This document shows positions 24,153-33,022 of a stretch of 33,077 nt of DNA, in pieces. The notes beneath the pieces are model-generated. The model searched no databases and had not been told where the DNA came from. It saw only the letters and a program-made list of their open reading frames with translations. Location of the stretch: positions 1-33,077 of the forward strand of contig CANGHX010000011.1 of the NCBI GenBank assembly GCA_947453715.1, read 5' to 3'. The DNA comes from Flavobacteriales bacterium. Lineage in GTDB: Bacteria > Bacteroidota > Bacteroidia > Flavobacteriales_D > Crocinitomicaceae. Position numbers and translations under genes: made by a program. Within the stretch, counting starts at the first letter, position 1. Every line of letters begins with the position of its first letter.

Positions 24153-25541
24153 TTATAACTCTAAATAAATTTTACCTTCTGTATTTATTCTTAATATTAA
24201 TTGATTTTCAGTTGGGTATATTTCTTCGAGTTTAACTTTTTTAACATTACCTTTTAGGAATACTCCTTTTTGAACTTGTGTATTTATTTGTTTATTTAGA
24301 GTTGTTTTTACAGTTTCAATATGTGTATTCAGGTCAAAAACAGCATTTAGACGAATCATATCTGTGATTTTCGAGCTAAATAACCATTTTGCAGATTTTA
24401 AAAGAGCACTTTTGGTTTTTACATCAAATTCCAAATCAGGGAAAGAAATAATTTGTTTTTCTTTATCAAATTTTGGTGTACCTGAAAGATATAAAACTCC
24501 TTTCTTTTTGCCAGAAAATGCTATTTCAAAGTTAAGAAGTTTATTAGTTGATCCAATAATTTTTAATTGTTCAAAAATAACTTTTTTACCTTTTATTTCT
24601 AGTTCTTTGCCTTTAATTTCATTCGAAATAATTGAACTTATAGAGTCATAACTGGCTAGAATATCTAAGGTTACAACAAATCCATCTTGATTAGTGAAAT
24701 TTGAAAGTTTAGGGAGCTCTTTATTTTTAAAATCTTCAATCAAATTTGTATTAAGCGTAGGATTTAATCCAATCGATAAGTCAAATGTGGCATTATTGCC
24801 ATTAAATGTTAAGTTTTCGAGTCCTATTTTACTTGGATTAGTATACAAATAGCCATATTTCCCTAAAGAAATAGGATTTGACAAGGTTTTCCATGCGCTT
24901 TCTGCTTGTGTCCTTAAATCTACTTTTCCTATTTCTTTATCAATATCTTTTTCTAGATTTTCTAAAGCTTTTGTGATTTCTGTTTTAAGAGTTTTAGTCG
25001 CGTCATACTTAAATACTGTTATTTCGCAAGGATCAGTTGTTTCAACTTTTTGAAGATCGGTTTTAGATTTTATTTTGTAATCAGGGGAAATTGATAATAG
25101 CGTAGAATATCCTACTGTAATTTTCCTTAAAGGTTCATTAACACCGCAGCTTGCATAGATTCTCGGAACAACGCAATTCCCTTTTGAATCAAATAAATCA
25201 GTACATTGAGGACAGTAATTTAATTTTAAGGCATACTTACCATCAACTTCAAAAGCAAGTGAATTTTTATTTCCATTAAATTGAATTGGGTCTCTAAAAA
25301 AGGTATAGCTAAAACTAACTCCATCACAATTTTCTTGTTTTCCAGTAAATTTTTTAGGAATTGAATTTTCAGTTTCTTTAAGGTATGGAGTTAAATTAAT
25401 CTTAATTGGAACTACAATGGAAGATAATGTCTGTTGAATTATTGGAGTTTCTTCTATTATATTTAAAGGTGCTTCTGGTTTAATTGATCCACAGGAAAAA
25501 AGAAAAAAAGAAAAAAAGAATAAAGTATATAAAGTTTTCAT
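24153..25541 (-). CDS. DUF4403-family lipoprotein
   Basis: Function unknown. I start it at the ATG at 25541, because this gives a lipoprotein signal peptide with lipobox LFSC (Cys17); the frame is open to 25592, but that adds 17 residues before the signal. The remainder resembles DUF4403 proteins: SSIVVPIKINLTPYL at the start, ESAWKTLSNPISLGKYGYLYTNPSKIG (seen as AWKTLSNPISL and GYLYTNPSKIG) in the middle, and alternating beta-strand/amphipathic pattern reminiscent of lipid-binding tubular (BPI-like) folds. Four cysteines at about 94-130 (NYCPQCTD, GNCVVP, YASCGV) could bind metal or form disulfides, an unusual insert. It is divergent from dabA with about 100 bases between. Confidence 0.75.
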   Translation of the reverse strand: MKTLYTLFFFSFFLFSCGSIKPEAPLNIIEETPIIQQTLSSIVVPIKINLTPYLKETENSIPKKFTGKQENCDGVSFSYTFFRDPIQFNGNKNSLAFEVDGKYALKLNYCPQCTDLFDSKGNCVVPRIYASCGVNEPLRKITVGYSTLLSISPDYKIKSKTDLQKVETTDPCEITVFKYDATKTLKTEITKALENLEKDIDKEIGKVDLRTQAESAWKTLSNPISLGKYGYLYTNPSKIGLENLTFNGNNATFDLSIGLNPTLNTNLIEDFKNKELPKLSNFTNQDGFVVTLDILASYDSISSIISNEIKGKELEIKGKKVIFEQLKIIGSTNKLLNFEIAFSGKKKGVLYLSGTPKFDKEKQIISFPDLEFDVKTKSALLKSAKWLFSSKITDMIRLNAVFDLNTHIETVKTTLNKQINTQVQKGVFLKGNVKKVKLEEIYPTENQLILRINTEGKIYLEL

Positions 25542-25643
25542 TAATAATAAAGTTGAAATTTGATGACTAAAAGTAGGCTTATTTTGAATCAAAATAAAAT
25601 ATAGATTCTATTTTTTTGTTATATTAATAGAAAAATTTCAATT

Positions 25644-28121
25644 ATGGCATTTAATCTTGACGATACACTTCATAAATTAAAACATTACTTGCCAAGTCAA
25701 GCGCCATTGAAGGATTTTATTCATCACAATACGCTTCATGCTTTTCAAGACATGAATTTTCATAAAGCGCTTCATTTTGCCTCAGAAAATTTTGGTTATC
25801 GTGTTTATTTATCCTTCAAAGAATATCGAGATTTATTTAATCAAAATAAGATTTCAAAAGAAGTTTTTAATTTTATTTTGTTGAAAGAAAAAGGCGAAAA
25901 TGATTTAAATGATTGGACTAACAAACTTTTATATGCAAAATTAAATGAACAGATTACACCTAGAATTGGAGCCTTAAAAAATCAATGGAAATACTTATTT
26001 CAGATTGATTTGGATTCCCAAGTTCACCCGTTACTTTTTAGAACAATTTGTTCATACTTAGATCAAGGCGTTGCGATTTGGCAATTTCCTACAAACCAAT
26101 TAGGTTTTTTAAAATCATTAGCAAAACTAGAGAGAAATAGTCTATCAAGCTTTTTTAAAACAACAAGAGCTCGAAATTTATTAATTTCTGGAAAGCATGA
26201 TTTATTGATGTTGTTAAAAATTGTTGTAGGTGACGAAAATTTGTATGAACAGTATCTATTTGATTTAGAATTTAGTCATCCTGGATGGTCTGGTATGGTT
26301 TCAGTAATCGACGAAAAACCAGATACCTTATTAGATAAAAGAAAAGTTACATTGTATGATTTAATTTATTTTGAGTTATTACTACAGATTGATATTTTGG
26401 ATAATTATTATGGTGAAATTTGGTCACCTTTAGGATTACATGTGAACAAAAAAAATACAAAATTTTTAATTACTCCGAAAGAAACAGAATTATTTGAAAT
26501 TTATAAACTGTGGCAAGAGATTTATGAAGAAAATTACTATCAACAAGTATTAAATGGTATAAAGCAAAATGTGAAAAGTATTCAAAGTACTGAGGTTTCT
26601 TTTCAGGCTGTTTTTTGTATCGATGATAGAGAGTGTTCAATTAGAAGGCATATTGAAGAAGTTGATAATACAGTAATGACTTATGGTACAGCAGGACATT
26701 TTAATTTAGAATTTTATTTTCAACCAAGTCAAGGACATTTTTACTCAAAAGTTTGTCCAGCAATGATTTCACCCAAAATATTAATTAAAGAAGAACTTAA
26801 AGAGAAACACTTACCTACGAATTTTCATTTTTCAAAATATGTAAATGGTTTGTTATTAGGTTGGATTTATACACATTTATTTGCAGTTTGGTCAATTTTT
26901 CAATTAATTATTGGTGTTTTTAAACCTTCTGAAAACAGTAGTACGGTTTCGTCGTTTAAACATATGAATAAAAATTCCCATTTGACGATTGAAAACATCA
27001 ATAATGAAATATCAAAAGATGGACTTCAAATAGGTTTCAAACTCAATGAAATGGTTGATCGTCTGGAAGGATTATTAAGAAGTATAGGCTTGATTGATCA
27101 TTTCGCACCAATTGTTTATTTTGTAGGTCATGGATCCAGTAGTGTGAACAATACTCATTATGCAGGTTATGATTGTGGTGCCTGTTCTGGAAGACCTGGA
27201 TCAGTAAATGCTCGAGTAATAGCTGATATTGGAAATCGAAAGGAGGTTAAAGAACTATTGAGAAATAGAGGTGTTGTAATTCCAAATGACACTGTTTTTA
27301 TTGGTAGTTTGCAAGATACAGCAAGAGATGAAATGGTATTTTATGACATTGAAAAATTGAATAATTTTCATACTGATAAACATAAAGAGAATGTAATAAA
27401 ATTTGAAAAAGCATTATCAGAAAATGCAGTTGAGCGATCACGAAGATTTTTTTCAATAAATTCAAAAGGGAATAAACATAAAATACATGAGCATGTAAAA
27501 GATAGAACACTCTCTCTTTTTGAGCCACGACCAGAATATAATCATGCTACAAATAGTCTATGTATTGTTGGCAGACGAAGTTTTTCGAAAAATCTATTTT
27601 TAGATCGTAGAGCTTTTTTAAATTCATACGACTATACTTTGGATCAAGATGGTAAATATTTATTGGGGATTTTAAACGCTGTGGCACCAGTTTGTGGTGG
27701 GATAAATTTGGAATATTATTTTTCAAGAGTCGATAATGAAAATTTAGGAGCAGGAACAAAATTACCCCACAATGCTATGGGATTGATTGGGGTAGCAAAT
27801 GGAACTGATGGAGATTTGAGAACAGGATTGCCGAATCAAATGATTGAAATTCATGATCCTTTAAGATTGTTAGTGATCGTTGAACATTTTCCTGAAATAG
27901 TTTTAGATACAATCCATAAAAACCCATCGACATTTCAATGGTTTGATAATGATTGGATTAAATTAATCGTTGTGAATCCTGAGACAAATGATTTTTTTGA
28001 ATATTACAATAATAGTTTTCAAATAAAGAAATTAGTTGAGATTAAAATAAATAAATTATCTGAGCTTAAAAATGGTATTGAATCTTACACTGATAATATT
28101 CCAATTTTGAAAGTTTCTTAA
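25644..28121 (+). CDS. dabA: DabA-type inorganic-carbon transport subunit, copy 1 (DUF2309)
   Basis: Soluble zinc-binding subunit of the DAB (DABs accumulate bicarbonate) system, thought to hydrate CO2 to bicarbonate in one direction using ion-gradient energy from DabB. The family's carbonic-anhydrase-like metal-site residues are visible: Cys325 and Asp327 in VFCIDDRECSIRRH, His496 in YFVGHGSSS and Cys511 in DCGACSGRPGS. The 15-residue His-Cys spacing equals that described for Halothiobacillus DabA. Other conserved blocks are APLKDFIHHNTLHAFQ at the N-terminus, ARNLL, GTAGHFNLEFYF and LGAGTKLPHN. Length (825) is normal and the frame is intact. It is one of two dabA copies here; the only dabB lies after the second copy. 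I see no exact TAnnTTTG promoter. Confidence 0.9.
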   Translation: MAFNLDDTLHKLKHYLPSQAPLKDFIHHNTLHAFQDMNFHKALHFASENFGYRVYLSFKEYRDLFNQNKISKEVFNFILLKEKGENDLNDWTNKLLYAKLNEQITPRIGALKNQWKYLFQIDLDSQVHPLLFRTICSYLDQGVAIWQFPTNQLGFLKSLAKLERNSLSSFFKTTRARNLLISGKHDLLMLLKIVVGDENLYEQYLFDLEFSHPGWSGMVSVIDEKPDTLLDKRKVTLYDLIYFELLLQIDILDNYYGEIWSPLGLHVNKKNTKFLITPKETELFEIYKLWQEIYEENYYQQVLNGIKQNVKSIQSTEVSFQAVFCIDDRECSIRRHIEEVDNTVMTYGTAGHFNLEFYFQPSQGHFYSKVCPAMISPKILIKEELKEKHLPTNFHFSKYVNGLLLGWIYTHLFAVWSIFQLIIGVFKPSENSSTVSSFKHMNKNSHLTIENINNEISKDGLQIGFKLNEMVDRLEGLLRSIGLIDHFAPIVYFVGHGSSSVNNTHYAGYDCGACSGRPGSVNARVIADIGNRKEVKELLRNRGVVIPNDTVFIGSLQDTARDEMVFYDIEKLNNFHTDKHKENVIKFEKALSENAVERSRRFFSINSKGNKHKIHEHVKDRTLSLFEPRPEYNHATNSLCIVGRRSFSKNLFLDRRAFLNSYDYTLDQDGKYLLGILNAVAPVCGGINLEYYFSRVDNENLGAGTKLPHNAMGLIGVANGTDGDLRTGLPNQMIEIHDPLRLLVIVEHFPEIVLDTIHKNPSTFQWFDNDWIKLIVVNPETNDFFEYYNNSFQIKKLVEIKINKLSELKNGIESYTDNIPILKVS

Positions 28122-28161
28122 AGTTAAGGGTGTTTTTTAACAAATTATTAGCAATTTATTA

Positions 28162-28193
28162 TTGTCATCACTTGACTTTATTATTTACATTTG
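28162..28193 (+). promoter_or_regulatory. Promoter of the small secreted-protein gene between the dabA copies
   Basis: TTG at 28162-28164, a 21-base spacer and TACATTTG at 28186-28193 match the consensus exactly. The -7 box ends 4 bases before the ATG at 28198, so the transcript would start at or next to the start codon (leaderless or nearly so). Confidence 0.65.
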
Positions 28194-28197
28194 CTCT

Positions 28198-28575
28198 ATG
28201 TATAGAATTTTCACAGGAAGGATTATTTGCATTGTAACTGTTTTATTAATGGTTACAGGCTTTTCTTTTTCTATGAATAATGTAAGTGAAATAAAGTTAA
28301 GTTCAGTTAAAATCAAAAAACTAACGTATTCGATCTCTCAAAATCAAGATGTTGATCCATTTACATATACAGAAATGGAGGAAATTGAAGATTTTGAGGA
28401 ATTTGAAGATTTTACATTTTTAAATTCTTTTGATTTTCACAATTTAATATTTCCATCGATTCAATTAATTGAATTAAATCACTCGGATTTAACTAAATGT
28501 ATTTTTGTTTATTACGACAAAAAGTCTGATTTCAAGTCTCCTAAATGGCTTACTCTCAAGAAAATTATTTTATAG
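28198..28575 (+). CDS. Small secreted or membrane-anchored acidic protein between dabA copies
   Basis: I do not recognise a family. From the ATG at 28198 it encodes 125 residues. The frame is open back to a TTG at 28162, but that TTG is the -33 promoter element, so the ATG is preferred. A signal peptide or anchor covers residues 1-25 (hydrophobic IICIVTVLLMVTGFSFS). The mature part holds an acidic/aromatic run (EMEEIEDFEEFEDFTF) built from a duplicated EE-x-EDF unit, then a less acidic C-terminus with many Lys (KKSDFKSPKWLTLKK). It sits 76 bases after dabA copy 1 and 75 bases before copy 2, on the same strand and with its own promoter. A role with the DAB system is suggested only by position. 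Confidence 0.6.
   Translation: MYRIFTGRIICIVTVLLMVTGFSFSMNNVSEIKLSSVKIKKLTYSISQNQDVDPFTYTEMEEIEDFEEFEDFTFLNSFDFHNLIFPSIQLIELNHSDLTKCIFVYYDKKSDFKSPKWLTLKKIIL
28378..28413 (+). repeat. Tandem 18-bp repeat, two copies
   Basis: 28378-28395 and 28396-28413 are 18-base units differing at one position. They encode EEIEDF then EEFEDF inside the small secreted protein, so the acidic run arose by in-frame duplication or is under codon-level repetition. Confidence 0.85.
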
Positions 28576-28650
28576 AATTTCAGTTGAACGATAAGATTGT
28601 TAGGTAATTTATTACTTGAATTTTAATGTTTTATTTTCAATTAGAGTCAT

Positions 28651-31149
28651 ATGAATTTATATAAAGAGAGTGTTTATAACGAAGAAAACGTAATTTCTAA
28701 ACTAAAGAGATTTTTACCTTTTCAGAATCCCCTAAAAGATTTTATTTTTCAGAATCTTTTGCAATCTTTTCAAGATCAGGATTTTCATGATGCTTTAAGA
28801 AAAGCTTCAGTGATTTTCGGGTATAAAAATTACTTGAAACTTGAAGAGTATAGAACCTTCTATGATAATGGGATAATAAAAAAAGATGTATTTAATCGAA
28901 TAATTGACAATAAATATGGTGTTGAAAATCGTGAAAAATGGATTGAAAAATTAATCCATAAAGAATACAAGGATAAAATTGATTCTCGAATTGGTGTTGT
29001 TCGCGGTCATTGGAAAGAGCATTTTAAAATTGATTTAGATTCTTTAGTGCATCCACTTTTATTCCGAATTGTTTGTAGCTATTTAGATCAAGGTATTGCA
29101 ATTTGGAATTTTCCAGCAGGGAATAATGGTTTTTTAGCATCAATTAAAGAGCTTGAAAAAAATAGTTTGACAAGTTTTTTTAAAAATGAAAGAGCCAAAC
29201 GATTACTTTTAGAAGATAAGTGTTCATTGTCTGAATTATTAGAAATCTTAGTTGGTAATGAGGAAAATTACGAGCATTATCTATTTGATCAACAATTTGC
29301 TCATCCAGGTTGGTCAGGTATTGTTTCTGTAATTGAAACAAATCCATCGACTTTATTGGATACTAAAAAAATATCCTTAGAAGAATTTATTCGCTTTGAG
29401 TTATTATTGGAAATTGATGCTTTAGACTCTTACTTTACAGATATTTGGTCTCCGCTATGTCATAAAATAAAATTAAATTTTGAAGGTGTATTTGATCCAG
29501 TGCCTGAAACAGAATTTTTCGAAGTAATTAGTGTATTACAAGATGCTTATGAATGGTCATATTATGACGAAGTTTTGTCTGGTATTTCGAAATCAGGATC
29601 TTATGAAATTGAAAATAGTGATCGATCATTTCAAGCTGTTTTTTGTATCGATGATAGAGAATGTTCAATTAGAAGACATGTTGAATCAACAGATTTAAAA
29701 TGCGAAACTTTTGGAACTCCAGGTCATTTTAATGTTGAATTTTATTTTCAACCTGAACACAGTAACTTCCATACAAAAGTTTGTCCCGCACCTGTTACAC
29801 CAAAATTTTTAATTAAAGAATTTGAAAAATCGGAAAAAAACAAGAAAGATTTTCATTTCTCTAATCGAGCAAATGGTTTAGTACTAGGGTGGATTTATAC
29901 ACATACTTTAGGATTCTTTTCTGTGTTTAAATTGTTTGCAAGTGTTTTCAGACCTACAAAAACAGCTTCATTTGTTACTGCTTCTAAACATATGGATCCA
30001 AATTCAACTTTAACTATTGAATCAAAAGGAGAAACTTCTGAAGATGGTTTGAAGATTGGTTTTACGTTAGACGAAATGGTTGAGAGAGTCTATAATTTAT
30101 TGCTAAGTATAGGTTTAACAGAAAACTTTTCTCCATTAGTATACTTTATTGGTCATGGTTCAAGTAGTGCAAACAATCCTTTTTATGCAACGATGGATTG
30201 TGGAGCTTGTTCTTGTCGACCAGGATCGGTTAATGCTAGAGTCATTAGCTTCATGTCTAATAAAAAAGAAGTTCGAATTGAATTGGCTAAAAAAGGTATT
30301 ATAATTCCAGAGGAAACTCAATTTTTAGGAGGTCTTCATGATACAGCAAGAGATGAAATTATTTACTTTGATGAATCTATTTTGAGTATTGAAAATCAAA
30401 AGAGACATGATGAAAATCAAAAAACTTTTTTAATTGCATTGGAACAAAATGCAAAGGAAAGATCTCGTCGATTTAAATCTATTAATACAAAGAATTCAGC
30501 AAAGAAAATTCACAAACAAATTCTTACGAGAACAGTTTCTCTTTTTGAGCCAAGACCTGAATTAGATCACGCTACTGCAACACTTTGTATTGTTGGAAGA
30601 AGAAAAATAACAAAAAATGTATTTTTAGATAGAAGAGCTTTTTTAAATTCTTACGATTATCGAAAAGATCCAGAAGGTAAAAGTTTGTTACCTATTTTAA
30701 ATGCTGCTACTCCTGTTTGTGGAGGTATTAATTTGAATTATTATTTTTCTAAAGTTGATAATCAGAATTTAGGAGCAGGTACTAAATTACCACATAACGT
30801 CATGGGATTATTTGGAGTTTCAAATGGAACGGATGGTGATTTAAGACCTGGATTGCCTATTCAAATGATTGAATTACATGACCCTGTGCGATTAATGATG
30901 GTAGTTGAGCATTTTCCGGAAGTTGTATTAAATGTTATTAAAACAAATCCATCCACATATGAATGGTATGAAAATAAATGGTTGAATTTGGTAGTGTTAA
31001 ACCCAGAAACAAAAGAATATTTTGTTTTTAATCAAGGTAAATTTATGAACTACACACCAGTTAATTTGGATATCAAAAAAATAAATGATGTCAATGCTGT
31101 GATCGAATCAACTCATTTAAATTTACCTGTTTATCTATTAAATAATTAA
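28651..31149 (+). CDS. dabA: DabA-type inorganic-carbon transport subunit, copy 2 (DUF2309)
   Basis: Second full-length DabA paralogue (832 residues). By eye about half of aligned residues match copy 1, more in the core and fewer at the N-terminus. Metal-site residues are again complete: Cys332 and Asp334 in FCIDDRECSIRRH, His502 in YFIGHGSSS and Cys517 in DCGACSCRPGS. Copy 2 has an extra Cys (SCR) where copy 1 has Gly (SGR) three residues after the CGAC element. The gene lies 75 bases after the small secreted-protein gene and only 4 bases before dabB, so this copy is the one translationally tied to the membrane subunit. The frame is intact with no sign of decay. Confidence 0.9.
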   Translation: MNLYKESVYNEENVISKLKRFLPFQNPLKDFIFQNLLQSFQDQDFHDALRKASVIFGYKNYLKLEEYRTFYDNGIIKKDVFNRIIDNKYGVENREKWIEKLIHKEYKDKIDSRIGVVRGHWKEHFKIDLDSLVHPLLFRIVCSYLDQGIAIWNFPAGNNGFLASIKELEKNSLTSFFKNERAKRLLLEDKCSLSELLEILVGNEENYEHYLFDQQFAHPGWSGIVSVIETNPSTLLDTKKISLEEFIRFELLLEIDALDSYFTDIWSPLCHKIKLNFEGVFDPVPETEFFEVISVLQDAYEWSYYDEVLSGISKSGSYEIENSDRSFQAVFCIDDRECSIRRHVESTDLKCETFGTPGHFNVEFYFQPEHSNFHTKVCPAPVTPKFLIKEFEKSEKNKKDFHFSNRANGLVLGWIYTHTLGFFSVFKLFASVFRPTKTASFVTASKHMDPNSTLTIESKGETSEDGLKIGFTLDEMVERVYNLLLSIGLTENFSPLVYFIGHGSSSANNPFYATMDCGACSCRPGSVNARVISFMSNKKEVRIELAKKGIIIPEETQFLGGLHDTARDEIIYFDESILSIENQKRHDENQKTFLIALEQNAKERSRRFKSINTKNSAKKIHKQILTRTVSLFEPRPELDHATATLCIVGRRKITKNVFLDRRAFLNSYDYRKDPEGKSLLPILNAATPVCGGINLNYYFSKVDNQNLGAGTKLPHNVMGLFGVSNGTDGDLRPGLPIQMIELHDPVRLMMVVEHFPEVVLNVIKTNPSTYEWYENKWLNLVVLNPETKEYFVFNQGKFMNYTPVNLDIKKINDVNAVIESTHLNLPVYLLNN

Positions 31150-31153
31150 AGTT

Positions 31154-33022
31154 ATGGGATATATAATTCATCTTTTCATATTGATTCCTTTTATAGGTTT
31201 TATTGTGAGTTTAGTTTTACCGAGAAAAAATGAAAAGTTAATATCAAGAGTATCTTTTCTAACAATTGGAGCTCATTTGCTTTTCTCAATTTATTTCATT
31301 AGTACTTGGTTAATGAGTGGAATGAAAGACATCGATTTTAAAGAATTCTCAATATTTAGATCTGGAAATTACGATTTTTATATAGATATTCATTTTGATG
31401 TAATCACTATGACTTTTCTAATTGTTGGATCGATATTAACTTTTTTGGTTTCAGGATTTAGTAGATTGTATCTTCATAGAGAACATGGATATCGAAGATT
31501 CTTTTCAACGCTTTTGTTTTTCTATATAGGTTACAATATTATTATTTTCGCAGGAAATTTAGAAACCATGTTTATTGGCTGGGAAATTTTAGGAATTTCT
31601 TCATTTTTATTAATAGCGTTTTATAGAGAAAGATATTTGCCAGTAAAAAATGCTGTTAAAGTCTTTTCAATTTATCGAATCGGAGATGTTGGATTAATAT
31701 TAGCGATGTGGCTAAGTCATCACTTTTGGCAAGCAAATATTTCATTTAAAGATATGTCGGATGCTCAAGTTTTAAGTGAGCATTTATCACAACACAGTTT
31801 AATTGGAATTATTATTTCGTTAATGATTTACATGTCTGCCGCTGCTAAGTCTGCACAATTGCCTTTTTCTTCATGGTTGCCACGTGCAATGGAAGGTCCA
31901 ACTCCTTCAAGTGCAATTTTCTACGGATCATTATCAGTTCATATTGGTGCATTTATCATGATGAGAACATTTCCTTTTTGGGAACATCAAATTTCATTTA
32001 GAGTTTTCGTTGTTGTAATTGGAATCATCACAAGTATTTACGCTATTTTAACTTCTAGAGTACAATCTTCTATTAAAAGTCAAATAGCTTATTCTTCAAT
32101 GGCACAAATAGGGTTGATATTTATTGAAATTGCCTGTGGTTTGCAGGAAGTTGCTTTGATTCATATTGCAGGAAATGCATTTTTAAGAACGTATCAGTTA
32201 TTGGTTTCTCCATCAGTTGTAAGTTATAAAATTAGAGAACAGTTTTACAACTTTGTTCCTCATCAAAAGACAATTGAAGATTCTTGGCCAAAACGATTTG
32301 AATATACAATTTACATGTTGAGTTTGAAAGAATGGAATTTAGATACGTTTATGTATACTCGTTTATGGAATCCATTAAAGAGATTTGGTAAGAAATTAAA
32401 CTTTTTGACTTTTAAAAATGTATTTGTTTTCTTTTTTATCATAATGTTTTTAGGATTTACATTGTTATTCAATGAAAGTTTAATTTCTGAAGAGTTAGAA
32501 AATTATGTTCCAACAGTTCTGGCTTTCATTGGTCTTGTTGCTGTGATAAAAGCTTTTACAGAAAGAAACAGTGTTCGTTTAAGTTGGAGTTTAGTAATTA
32601 TCAATCATCTTTTAGTTGCTATGGCTATTTCGTTTAATGAGCATTTTGACGTTTCACATATAATGTTGTATTTAAGTGGTGTCATCGTCTCAGGAATAAT
32701 AGGTTTTTTCTGTATTCAACGTTTAAGAGGGTTAGAGAAATGGGTAAGTTTAGATAAATTTTATGGTCACTCATATGAACATCCAAAATTGACTATGATA
32801 TTTTTTATTGCTTGTCTAGGTTTGTCAGGTTTTCCAATTACACCAACATTTATTGGTATAGATTTAATTTTCTCCCATATACACGAAGAACAAGTATTGT
32901 TAGCATTCTTTGTTGCATTAAGTTTTATTTTAAATGGTCTAGCTGTTATGAGAATTTACGCTAGAATTTTCTTAGGTCCGCATGTGAAAAAATATCACAG
33001 TATTGCAAAACGATCTTTTTAA
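31154..33022 (+). CDS. dabB: DabB-type NuoL-like proton-conducting membrane subunit
   Basis: Membrane subunit of the DAB inorganic-carbon system, related to antiporter-like subunits NuoL/MrpA (proton-conducting transporter family). Key charged residues are Glu144 in FIGWEILGISS and Lys232 in AAAKSAQLPFSSWLPRAMEGPTP-type region (seen as AKSAQLPFSSWLP), matching the NuoL Glu144/Lys229 pair. The later half-helix GNAFLRTYQLLVSPS has Arg where NuoL has Lys. About 14 or more hydrophobic segments are visible. At 622 residues it is rather long; the part after about residue 420 adds further membrane helices beyond the core. It directly follows dabA copy 2, and no other complex I gene is present, which argues against a true nuoL. 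Confidence 0.85.
   Translation: MGYIIHLFILIPFIGFIVSLVLPRKNEKLISRVSFLTIGAHLLFSIYFISTWLMSGMKDIDFKEFSIFRSGNYDFYIDIHFDVITMTFLIVGSILTFLVSGFSRLYLHREHGYRRFFSTLLFFYIGYNIIIFAGNLETMFIGWEILGISSFLLIAFYRERYLPVKNAVKVFSIYRIGDVGLILAMWLSHHFWQANISFKDMSDAQVLSEHLSQHSLIGIIISLMIYMSAAAKSAQLPFSSWLPRAMEGPTPSSAIFYGSLSVHIGAFIMMRTFPFWEHQISFRVFVVVIGIITSIYAILTSRVQSSIKSQIAYSSMAQIGLIFIEIACGLQEVALIHIAGNAFLRTYQLLVSPSVVSYKIREQFYNFVPHQKTIEDSWPKRFEYTIYMLSLKEWNLDTFMYTRLWNPLKRFGKKLNFLTFKNVFVFFFIIMFLGFTLLFNESLISEELENYVPTVLAFIGLVAVIKAFTERNSVRLSWSLVIINHLLVAMAISFNEHFDVSHIMLYLSGVIVSGIIGFFCIQRLRGLEKWVSLDKFYGHSYEHPKLTMIFFIACLGLSGFPITPTFIGIDLIFSHIHEEQVLLAFFVALSFILNGLAVMRIYARIFLGPHVKKYHSIAKRSF

Follow-up and report, generated by a model that had tools for sequence, protein, structure and literature searches.

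Gene content and residue signature of the locus

We analysed a window of 33,077 bp, the entire contig C11 of a Flavobacteriales genome of the family Crocinitomicaceae (G000; 310 contigs, 3.3 Mb, 92.67% complete), towards the right-hand end of which two dabA genes stand in tandem, with a small open reading frame (ORF), here called sp, between them and a single dabB behind them (Table 1). By its sequence the system belongs to the DAB family, and the locus is best explained as a Bacteroidota-type DAB inorganic-carbon operon of sp, dabA2 and dabB that continues, across a contig break, with sulP and the gene for a protein of ~460 aa (X455). The upstream neighbour of dabA1 is a DUF4403 gene. Contig C3 of the window genome starts within a SulP gene that is followed by X455, and dabB is succeeded by sulP and X455 in G006 and in contigs c103 and c148 of G003, two genomes of the same genus; the stretch lost between C11 and C3 is estimated from G006 at ~1.2-1.3 kb. 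X455 is a conserved protein of 440-470 aa that follows sulP in many such operons (e.g. L121:406-1812, L026:2277-3695), for which a Pfam scan gave no match. For sp, the ATG at 28198 is a more likely start than the TTG at 28162.

Table 1. Features of the dabA-sp-dabA-dabB locus (window coordinates) and locus records with sp in other contexts.
Feature	Position	Strand	Remarks
dabA1 (copy 1, extra DabA), 825 aa	25644..28121	+	Intact ORF; PF10070, 683.9 bits, near full-length
Copy 1 cassette, approximate extent	25509..28132	+	blastn against G003 contig c103 stops at 25508 and restarts at 28133
Bacteroidota -7 box TACATTTG	28186..28193	+	TAnnTTTG, directly 5' of sp
sp, leader-like ORF, 125 aa	28198..28575	+	TAG stop; conserved family, no Pfam match
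Predicted RNA stem	28569..28655	+	28569-28574 (sp stop) pairs with 28650-28655 (dabA2 ATG)
dabA2 (copy 2, core DabA), 832 aa	28651..31149	+	Intact ORF; PF10070, 682.8 bits, near full-length
dabB, 622 aa	31154..33022	+	Intact ORF; PF00361, 136.6 bits, also PF00662; sole DabB found
sp before HlyD-RND genes	L104, L105, L106, L107, L120
sp before Band_7 genes	L109, L112, L113, L114, L116
sp near SbtA	L108

Because the contig stops at the right-hand edge of the window, the presence of only one dabB could not be read from the window alone. A DabB search of the window genome, at its 92.67% completeness, returned dabB and one 30%-identical gene on contig C46, a 633-aa ORF that reads by eye as NuoL, and a second dabB inside the gap between C11 and C3 is unlikely. 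The Cys/His/Cys zinc ligands and the Asp-Arg dyad are complete in both DabA copies, as they are in all 58 type I DabA rows of our alignment. An initial annotation of the window had described two intact DabAs, about half identical, served by one DabB in a heterotroph-like host, and these descriptions held: all eight active-site residues that it named are right (Cys325/Asp327/His496/Cys511 and Cys332/Asp334/His502/Cys517), the copies are identical at 453 of 822 positions (55%), the genome search gave the one DabB, and no match to the RuBisCO large subunit was found in the window genome, which has two beta-carbonic anhydrase matches. We infer that the natural role of the system would be the supply of bicarbonate for carboxylases.

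The best described relative is DAB2 of Halothiobacillus neapolitanus, which according to its report (PMC13144422) is a one-to-one heterodimer of a zinc-containing, beta-carbonic-anhydrase-like DabA that covers DabB, the latter offering a putative proton path; when purified it binds CO2 without hydrating it, and membrane potential is proposed there as the driver. The window system resembles DAB2 (PDB 9rd0, 9rd8, 9rd9) in pairing a PF10070 DabA with a PF00361 DabB, in the zinc ligands and Asp-Arg dyad and in DabB Lys235, Ser256, Lys310 and His339, but adds a second DabA and the leader ORF sp to the order dabA-dabB. It also departs from DAB2 at residues to which the same source gives weight, namely DabA Leu658, strictly conserved in 150 homologues and replaced by Gln or His in beta-carbonic anhydrases, DabA Glu444, without which DAB2 was inactive, and DabB His260, His343 and Lys347, without which it was impaired. 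Leu658 is His in the window and in 58/58 type I rows, whereas it is Leu in eight of eight named DABs (two from archaea, four from Alphaproteobacteria, one from a Staphylococcus and one from a Mycolicibacterium) and in 4/4 type II rows from Bacteroidia. Glu444, where the alignment is less certain, is His in both window copies, His or Gln in 51/58 type I rows, Glu in all eight named rows and Ser in the four Bacteroidia type II rows. DabB Ile151, His260, His343 and Lys347 become Glu, Tyr, Asn and Arg in 52/52 type I rows, while the last three are kept in the eight named and four type II rows. Since these residues differ from those of DAB2, the ion path must differ in detail. Escherichia coli NuoL gives type I DabB a higher score (143.7 bits) than DabB2 does (91.1 bits), and an origin from NuoL was left undecided by a 27-row tree with two NuoL rows, in which long branches meet. 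The class also holds DAB2-like systems (G018, G016, G049, G056) with Ser at the position of Glu444.

Occurrence, descent and constraint of the two DabA copies

The tandem is genuine and old, and it is rare among the genomes sampled. DabA was found in 93 of 240 genomes of the family, with an adjacent pair on one contig in the window genome and in G006; in G003, contig c76 carries copy 1 and then the first 185 codons of copy 2 up to the contig end. The class draw (DabA in 78/395 genomes) and the phylum draw (30/395) gave the window genome as the sole tandem. These counts come from overlapping family, class and phylum samples, the search for tandems stopping at the phylum, and contig ends near dabA may hide further cases. 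Within the window's genus, the only one in which the tandem was seen, DabA occurs in 8/12 genomes, and close relatives of the window genome carry a single copy. Plasmid records with a DabA match numbered 123, all below 60% identity (28-33% among the 40 matches listed). In records L046, L048 and L049 (CALPUT02), which fall in the window's genus, one genome appears with two differing copies of the locus, and its bin looks mixed.

The two copies belong to separate lineages. All trees are quick IQ-TREE runs with SH-aLRT support only. In a DabA tree of 58 type I and four type II rows, copy 1 from the window, from G003 and from G006 clusters with the single DabA of G004, with a support of 97, or of 95 when 31 rows are used; that smaller tree places copy 2 with G011 (99) and next with another genus of the family (98). 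A recent tandem duplication was rejected: forcing both copies into one clade costs 100 log-likelihood units and gives p-AU 0.00012 in an approximately unbiased (AU) test that drew on 31 of the 62 rows and followed the inspection of a first tree. The initial annotation had excluded a fresh duplication by eye and proposed a search for the gene order in relatives and a DabA tree; the order recurs in G006 and, up to the contig end, in G003, and each copy forms a clade over three genomes, in place of unrelated single-genome acquisitions. In the DabB tree the eight rows of the genus stay together (97).

Contig c103 of G003, which is probably from another strain within the same assembly as c76 and c148 because its sequence clearly differs from theirs, has the order DUF4403-sp-dabA2-dabB-sulP-X455 without copy 1 and holds ~140 bp at that site. 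With its flanks matching the window, this gap, together with the lineage tree, marks copy 1 as a separable cassette of an old lineage. By parsimony, the ancestor shared by the window, c76/c148 and G006 already had copy 1, which was lost toward c103.

Both dabA copies are under purifying selection. Against the nearest G003 contigs, dN/dS is 0.141 for dabA1 (c76), 0.047 for dabA2 (c148), 0.009 for dabB (c148) and 0.229 for sp; against G006 the values are 0.209, 0.104, 0.050 and 0.262. At 114 positions invariant in 51 other type I DabAs, the window's DabA2 keeps all 114 and DabA1 keeps 111, and the equivalent of Gly447 (numbering of the DAB2 DabA), Gly in 55/55 other rows, is Ala in all three DabA1s. 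An AlphaFold model of DabA1, built on 6 sequences, reached a mean pLDDT of 41.4 and was discarded.

The sp family and its junctions

The set of sp ORFs was picked by position and size, not by homology, as ORFs of 90-160 aa ending 30-195 bp before dabA. Such an ORF is present at 46 of 56 loci, and part of the ten loci without one is explained by cut contigs or by sulP coming first. All 46 have an N-terminal hydrophobic stretch, as judged by hydropathy alone, and the conserved C-terminal end can be written as P-x-W-L-x-x-R-x-I-x-I, with Pro at -11 in 31, Trp, Phe or Tyr at -9 in 42 and Ile, Leu or Val as the last residue in 41. Mean pairwise identity is 26% in the last 11 residues against 7% in the 11 before them, and the conserved C-terminal residues use several codons, which points to selection on the peptide. 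The window's sp had no Pfam match and nothing meaningful in NCBIfam (E 0.068).

A hidden Markov model (HMM) made from 15 sp sequences, members of the family sample that was then searched, matched in 69/240 genomes at E <=0.01, with a DabA match no more than 500 bp away at 58 of the 78 places. Among the 20 others, four precede HlyD-RND genes, four precede Band_7 genes and one is near SbtA; the remainder stand by a remnant (G069), a contig end (G252) or an unidentified ORF (G109), and the 20 also include one place that was not retrieved (G075) and eight at E 3e-5 to 0.009 whose contexts were not assigned. The homologues before HlyD-RND pump genes (G029, G139, G140, G023; E 9e-11 to 3e-7) and before Band_7 genes (G071-G074; E 4e-12 to 2e-6) lie outside the model; Pfam confirmed the HlyD or Band_7 neighbour in 8/8 cases and the RND gene in G029, G139 and G023, the G140 copy having masked bases. 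In G019 the homologue (E 4e-6) is followed by an ORF of 184 aa and by an SbtA gene. A wider HMM brought up a second sp in the window genome itself, before a Band_7 gene on contig C99, and one in G614 before HlyD-RND. A further sp-like ORF on C116 of the window genome (E 6.1e-4), with genes for an HMA-domain protein and a TonB receptor behind it, was kept out of the firm contexts; by eye it resembles HYC_CC_PP proteins. In the class sample the wider HMM matched only 10/395 genomes, and in two of these the match fell within a longer frame (275 and 345 codons), so the family fades fast at the sequence level. G273 and G416 have the order sp-sulP-X455-dabA-dabB, as does G353 if judged by position alone; sp thus comes first even when sulP leads, and is tied to the head of the operon and not to dabA. 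In G069 (L111:902-1306, minus strand), a 134-aa ORF directly follows the sp gene and precedes a SulP-like ORF; by eye its start (LMSTIQQIKKYLPSQ) looks like DabA and its end (PHVKTYHSVAYKSS) like DabB, and it may be the remnant of a dabA-dabB deletion or an assembly collapse.

The RNA at the sp-dabA junction, folded over the final 45 nt of sp and on to position +39 of dabA and compared with dinucleotide shuffles, is unusually stable, with a mean z of -2.48 over 46 loci and 31 below -2. The controls gave -0.26 for dabA-dabB junctions (n=44), -0.64 within coding sequence (n=45), -0.92 upstream of sp (n=44) and -1.13 for other same-strand junctions (n=68; p 1.5e-6 against sp-dabA). Junctions of sp with sulP reached -2.5, -5.0 and -3.0, those with RND genes -0.7 to -3.5 (n=5) and those with Band_7 genes -0.6 to -2.8 (n=5), while the doubtful C116 case gave -0.61. 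When the RNA was masked as far as 12 nt beyond the sp stop, the mean unpaired probability at the dabA start rose from 0.41 to 0.52, 22/46 loci becoming more open by >0.1 and three less; control junctions went from 0.52 to 0.55, with 11/61 more open. The stop codon of sp is TAA in only 10/46 cases against 144/213 for other genes of the same loci (Fisher p 1.3e-8), although this p-value and that for folding are too small because the loci share ancestry.

A sigma-70-type promoter scan returned 44 sites against 43.4 in shuffles. The Bacteroidota box TAnnTTTG occurs within 60 bp before sp in 31/45 loci against 8% of shuffles, at -12/-13 from the ATG in 15. In Flavobacterium psychrophilum the box is reported at -12 to -5 relative to the start of the transcript, with leaderless mRNAs making up 5.5% (PMC9723704); with that spacing, the sp transcript would start at or beside its ATG. 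The window's box sits within the stretch common to c103, and no TAnnTTTG box was found within 120 bp before dabA1, dabA2 or dabB in the window.

Proposed sharing of DabB and control by sp

In the reading we prefer, with a probability of roughly 0.55, DabA1 is an alternative DabA on the shared DabB, outside the control of sp, and sp controls dabA2-dabB in cis. DabA2 and DabB would form the core pair, in which, by homology, ion entry via DabB would be coupled to the hydration of CO2, the presumed substrate, at the DabA zinc site, while DabA1, probably outside the unit controlled by sp, would be an alternative catalytic subunit for the same DabB. The 3' end of sp is predicted to pair with the start of dabA2, which would become open when a ribosome is halted at the end of sp. 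Among the meanings put forward in the initial annotation, the best fit is that of alternative soluble subunits for a single membrane subunit, with the sharing of DabB and the separate expression of the two copies presumed; its view of the middle ORF as just a small secreted protein found no support, the family heading other operons and having features of a leader ORF.

These features recall the arrest leaders that monitor export. Candidates for such leaders, according to a survey (PMC10987492), are small ORFs that precede a sec or yidC gene and have an export or membrane signal at the N-terminus, more than 30 aa of spacer and a conserved C-terminus; its Bacteroidota groups end in NSP-stop and NAP-stop, and it covered ORFs upstream of sec and yidC only. 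SecM, MifM, VemP and the NSP-stop and NAP-stop groups share with sp the small upstream ORF, the hydrophobic N-terminus, the spacer of >30 aa and a C-terminus conserved to the stop, and the hydrophobic stretch of sp is probably a signal of the kind named in the survey. Unlike them, sp has another C-terminal motif and stands before carbon-uptake, RND and Band_7 genes and not before secA, secDF or yidC. The design of sp is thus SecM-like to judge from sequence, and ribosome stalling, at which the junction folding and the stop codons hint indirectly, is putative. A literature search, thin on subscription papers, found neither a dabA leader nor a tandem dabA in titles or the beginnings of abstracts. 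More tentatively, and at somewhat less than even odds, these ORFs may be a Bacteroidota family of cis switches that has so far gone undescribed, in which the exported N-terminus would sense conditions at the membrane and the C-terminal motif would slow or stop the ribosome at a weak stop, opening the next gene, here dabA2-dabB. In this genus the extra DabA, placed upstream, would escape the switch, and the one DabB would have one catalytic subunit under the switch and another free of it. To us the sp family and the residue signature, both drawn from sequence statistics, are more surprising than the tandem itself.

Several points weigh against our reading. The window's own junction is modestly folded (z -1.51), that of the close relative c76 less so (z -0.50), and certain other sp junctions are not unusually folded either. 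A near-match to the box, TTATTTTG, stands before dabA1 (by eye), and the dabA1 transcript could run on into sp. The faster evolution of copy 1 than of copy 2, its absence from c103 and the Ala in place of Gly447, which lies in the membrane finger three residues from Glu444, could all mean that DabA1 is weakening.

The alternative that survives best, though we consider it rather improbable, is that sp acts on dabA2 only by translational coupling by way of RNA structure, or is a sign of transcription attenuation, without arrest of the nascent chain. The strong fold signal over 46 loci would suit this, and attenuation by leader peptides is described for amino-acid operons of F. psychrophilum; the conserved C-terminal peptide with its varied codons and the hydrophobic N-terminus would be left unexplained, however, and no terminator-like site was found on the plus strand at the sp-dabA2 junction. 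It is unlikely that DabA1 is weakening or has another role independent of this DabB: its dN/dS exceeds that of DabA2 and DabB, it keeps 111 of the 114 invariant positions against 114 in DabA2, all three DabA1s have Ala for the glycine, and c103 does without it, but values of 0.14-0.23 still mean strong constraint, the zinc site is complete, and between the window and G006 the finger (34/47 identical) is more conserved than the whole protein (537/825).

Less likely again is that sp is an exported accessory subunit of DAB. It adjoins dabA by position at 46/56 loci, and the three-gene DAB1 of H. neapolitanus also has a small-protein gene next to dabA, encoding the membrane protein Hneap_0908 (PMC13144422), to which sp can be likened by description. 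Yet sp is found in other operons too, heading RND-pump and Band_7 genes and preceding sulP where sulP leads, contexts that favour a cis leader over a subunit; only its extreme C-terminus is well conserved, and a folded junction and avoidance of TAA would not be expected of a subunit, which sp probably is not. A heteromeric complex of DabA1, DabA2 and DabB is very improbable, for although the genes adjoin and persist together in G000, G006 and apparently G003, DAB2 is one-to-one, close relatives use one DabA, c103 lacks copy 1 and the promoter box separates dabA1 from dabA2-dabB.

If our reading is true, Bacteroidota without RuBisCO may regulate the uptake of CO2 or bicarbonate in this way, the locus would offer an example from nature of two DabAs in competition for one DabB, and leader peptides that sense export would be extended from secretion genes to transporters. 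Energy coupling in the DAB family becomes testable by residue swaps, given a conserved subtype that lacks Glu444, His260, His343 and Lys347.

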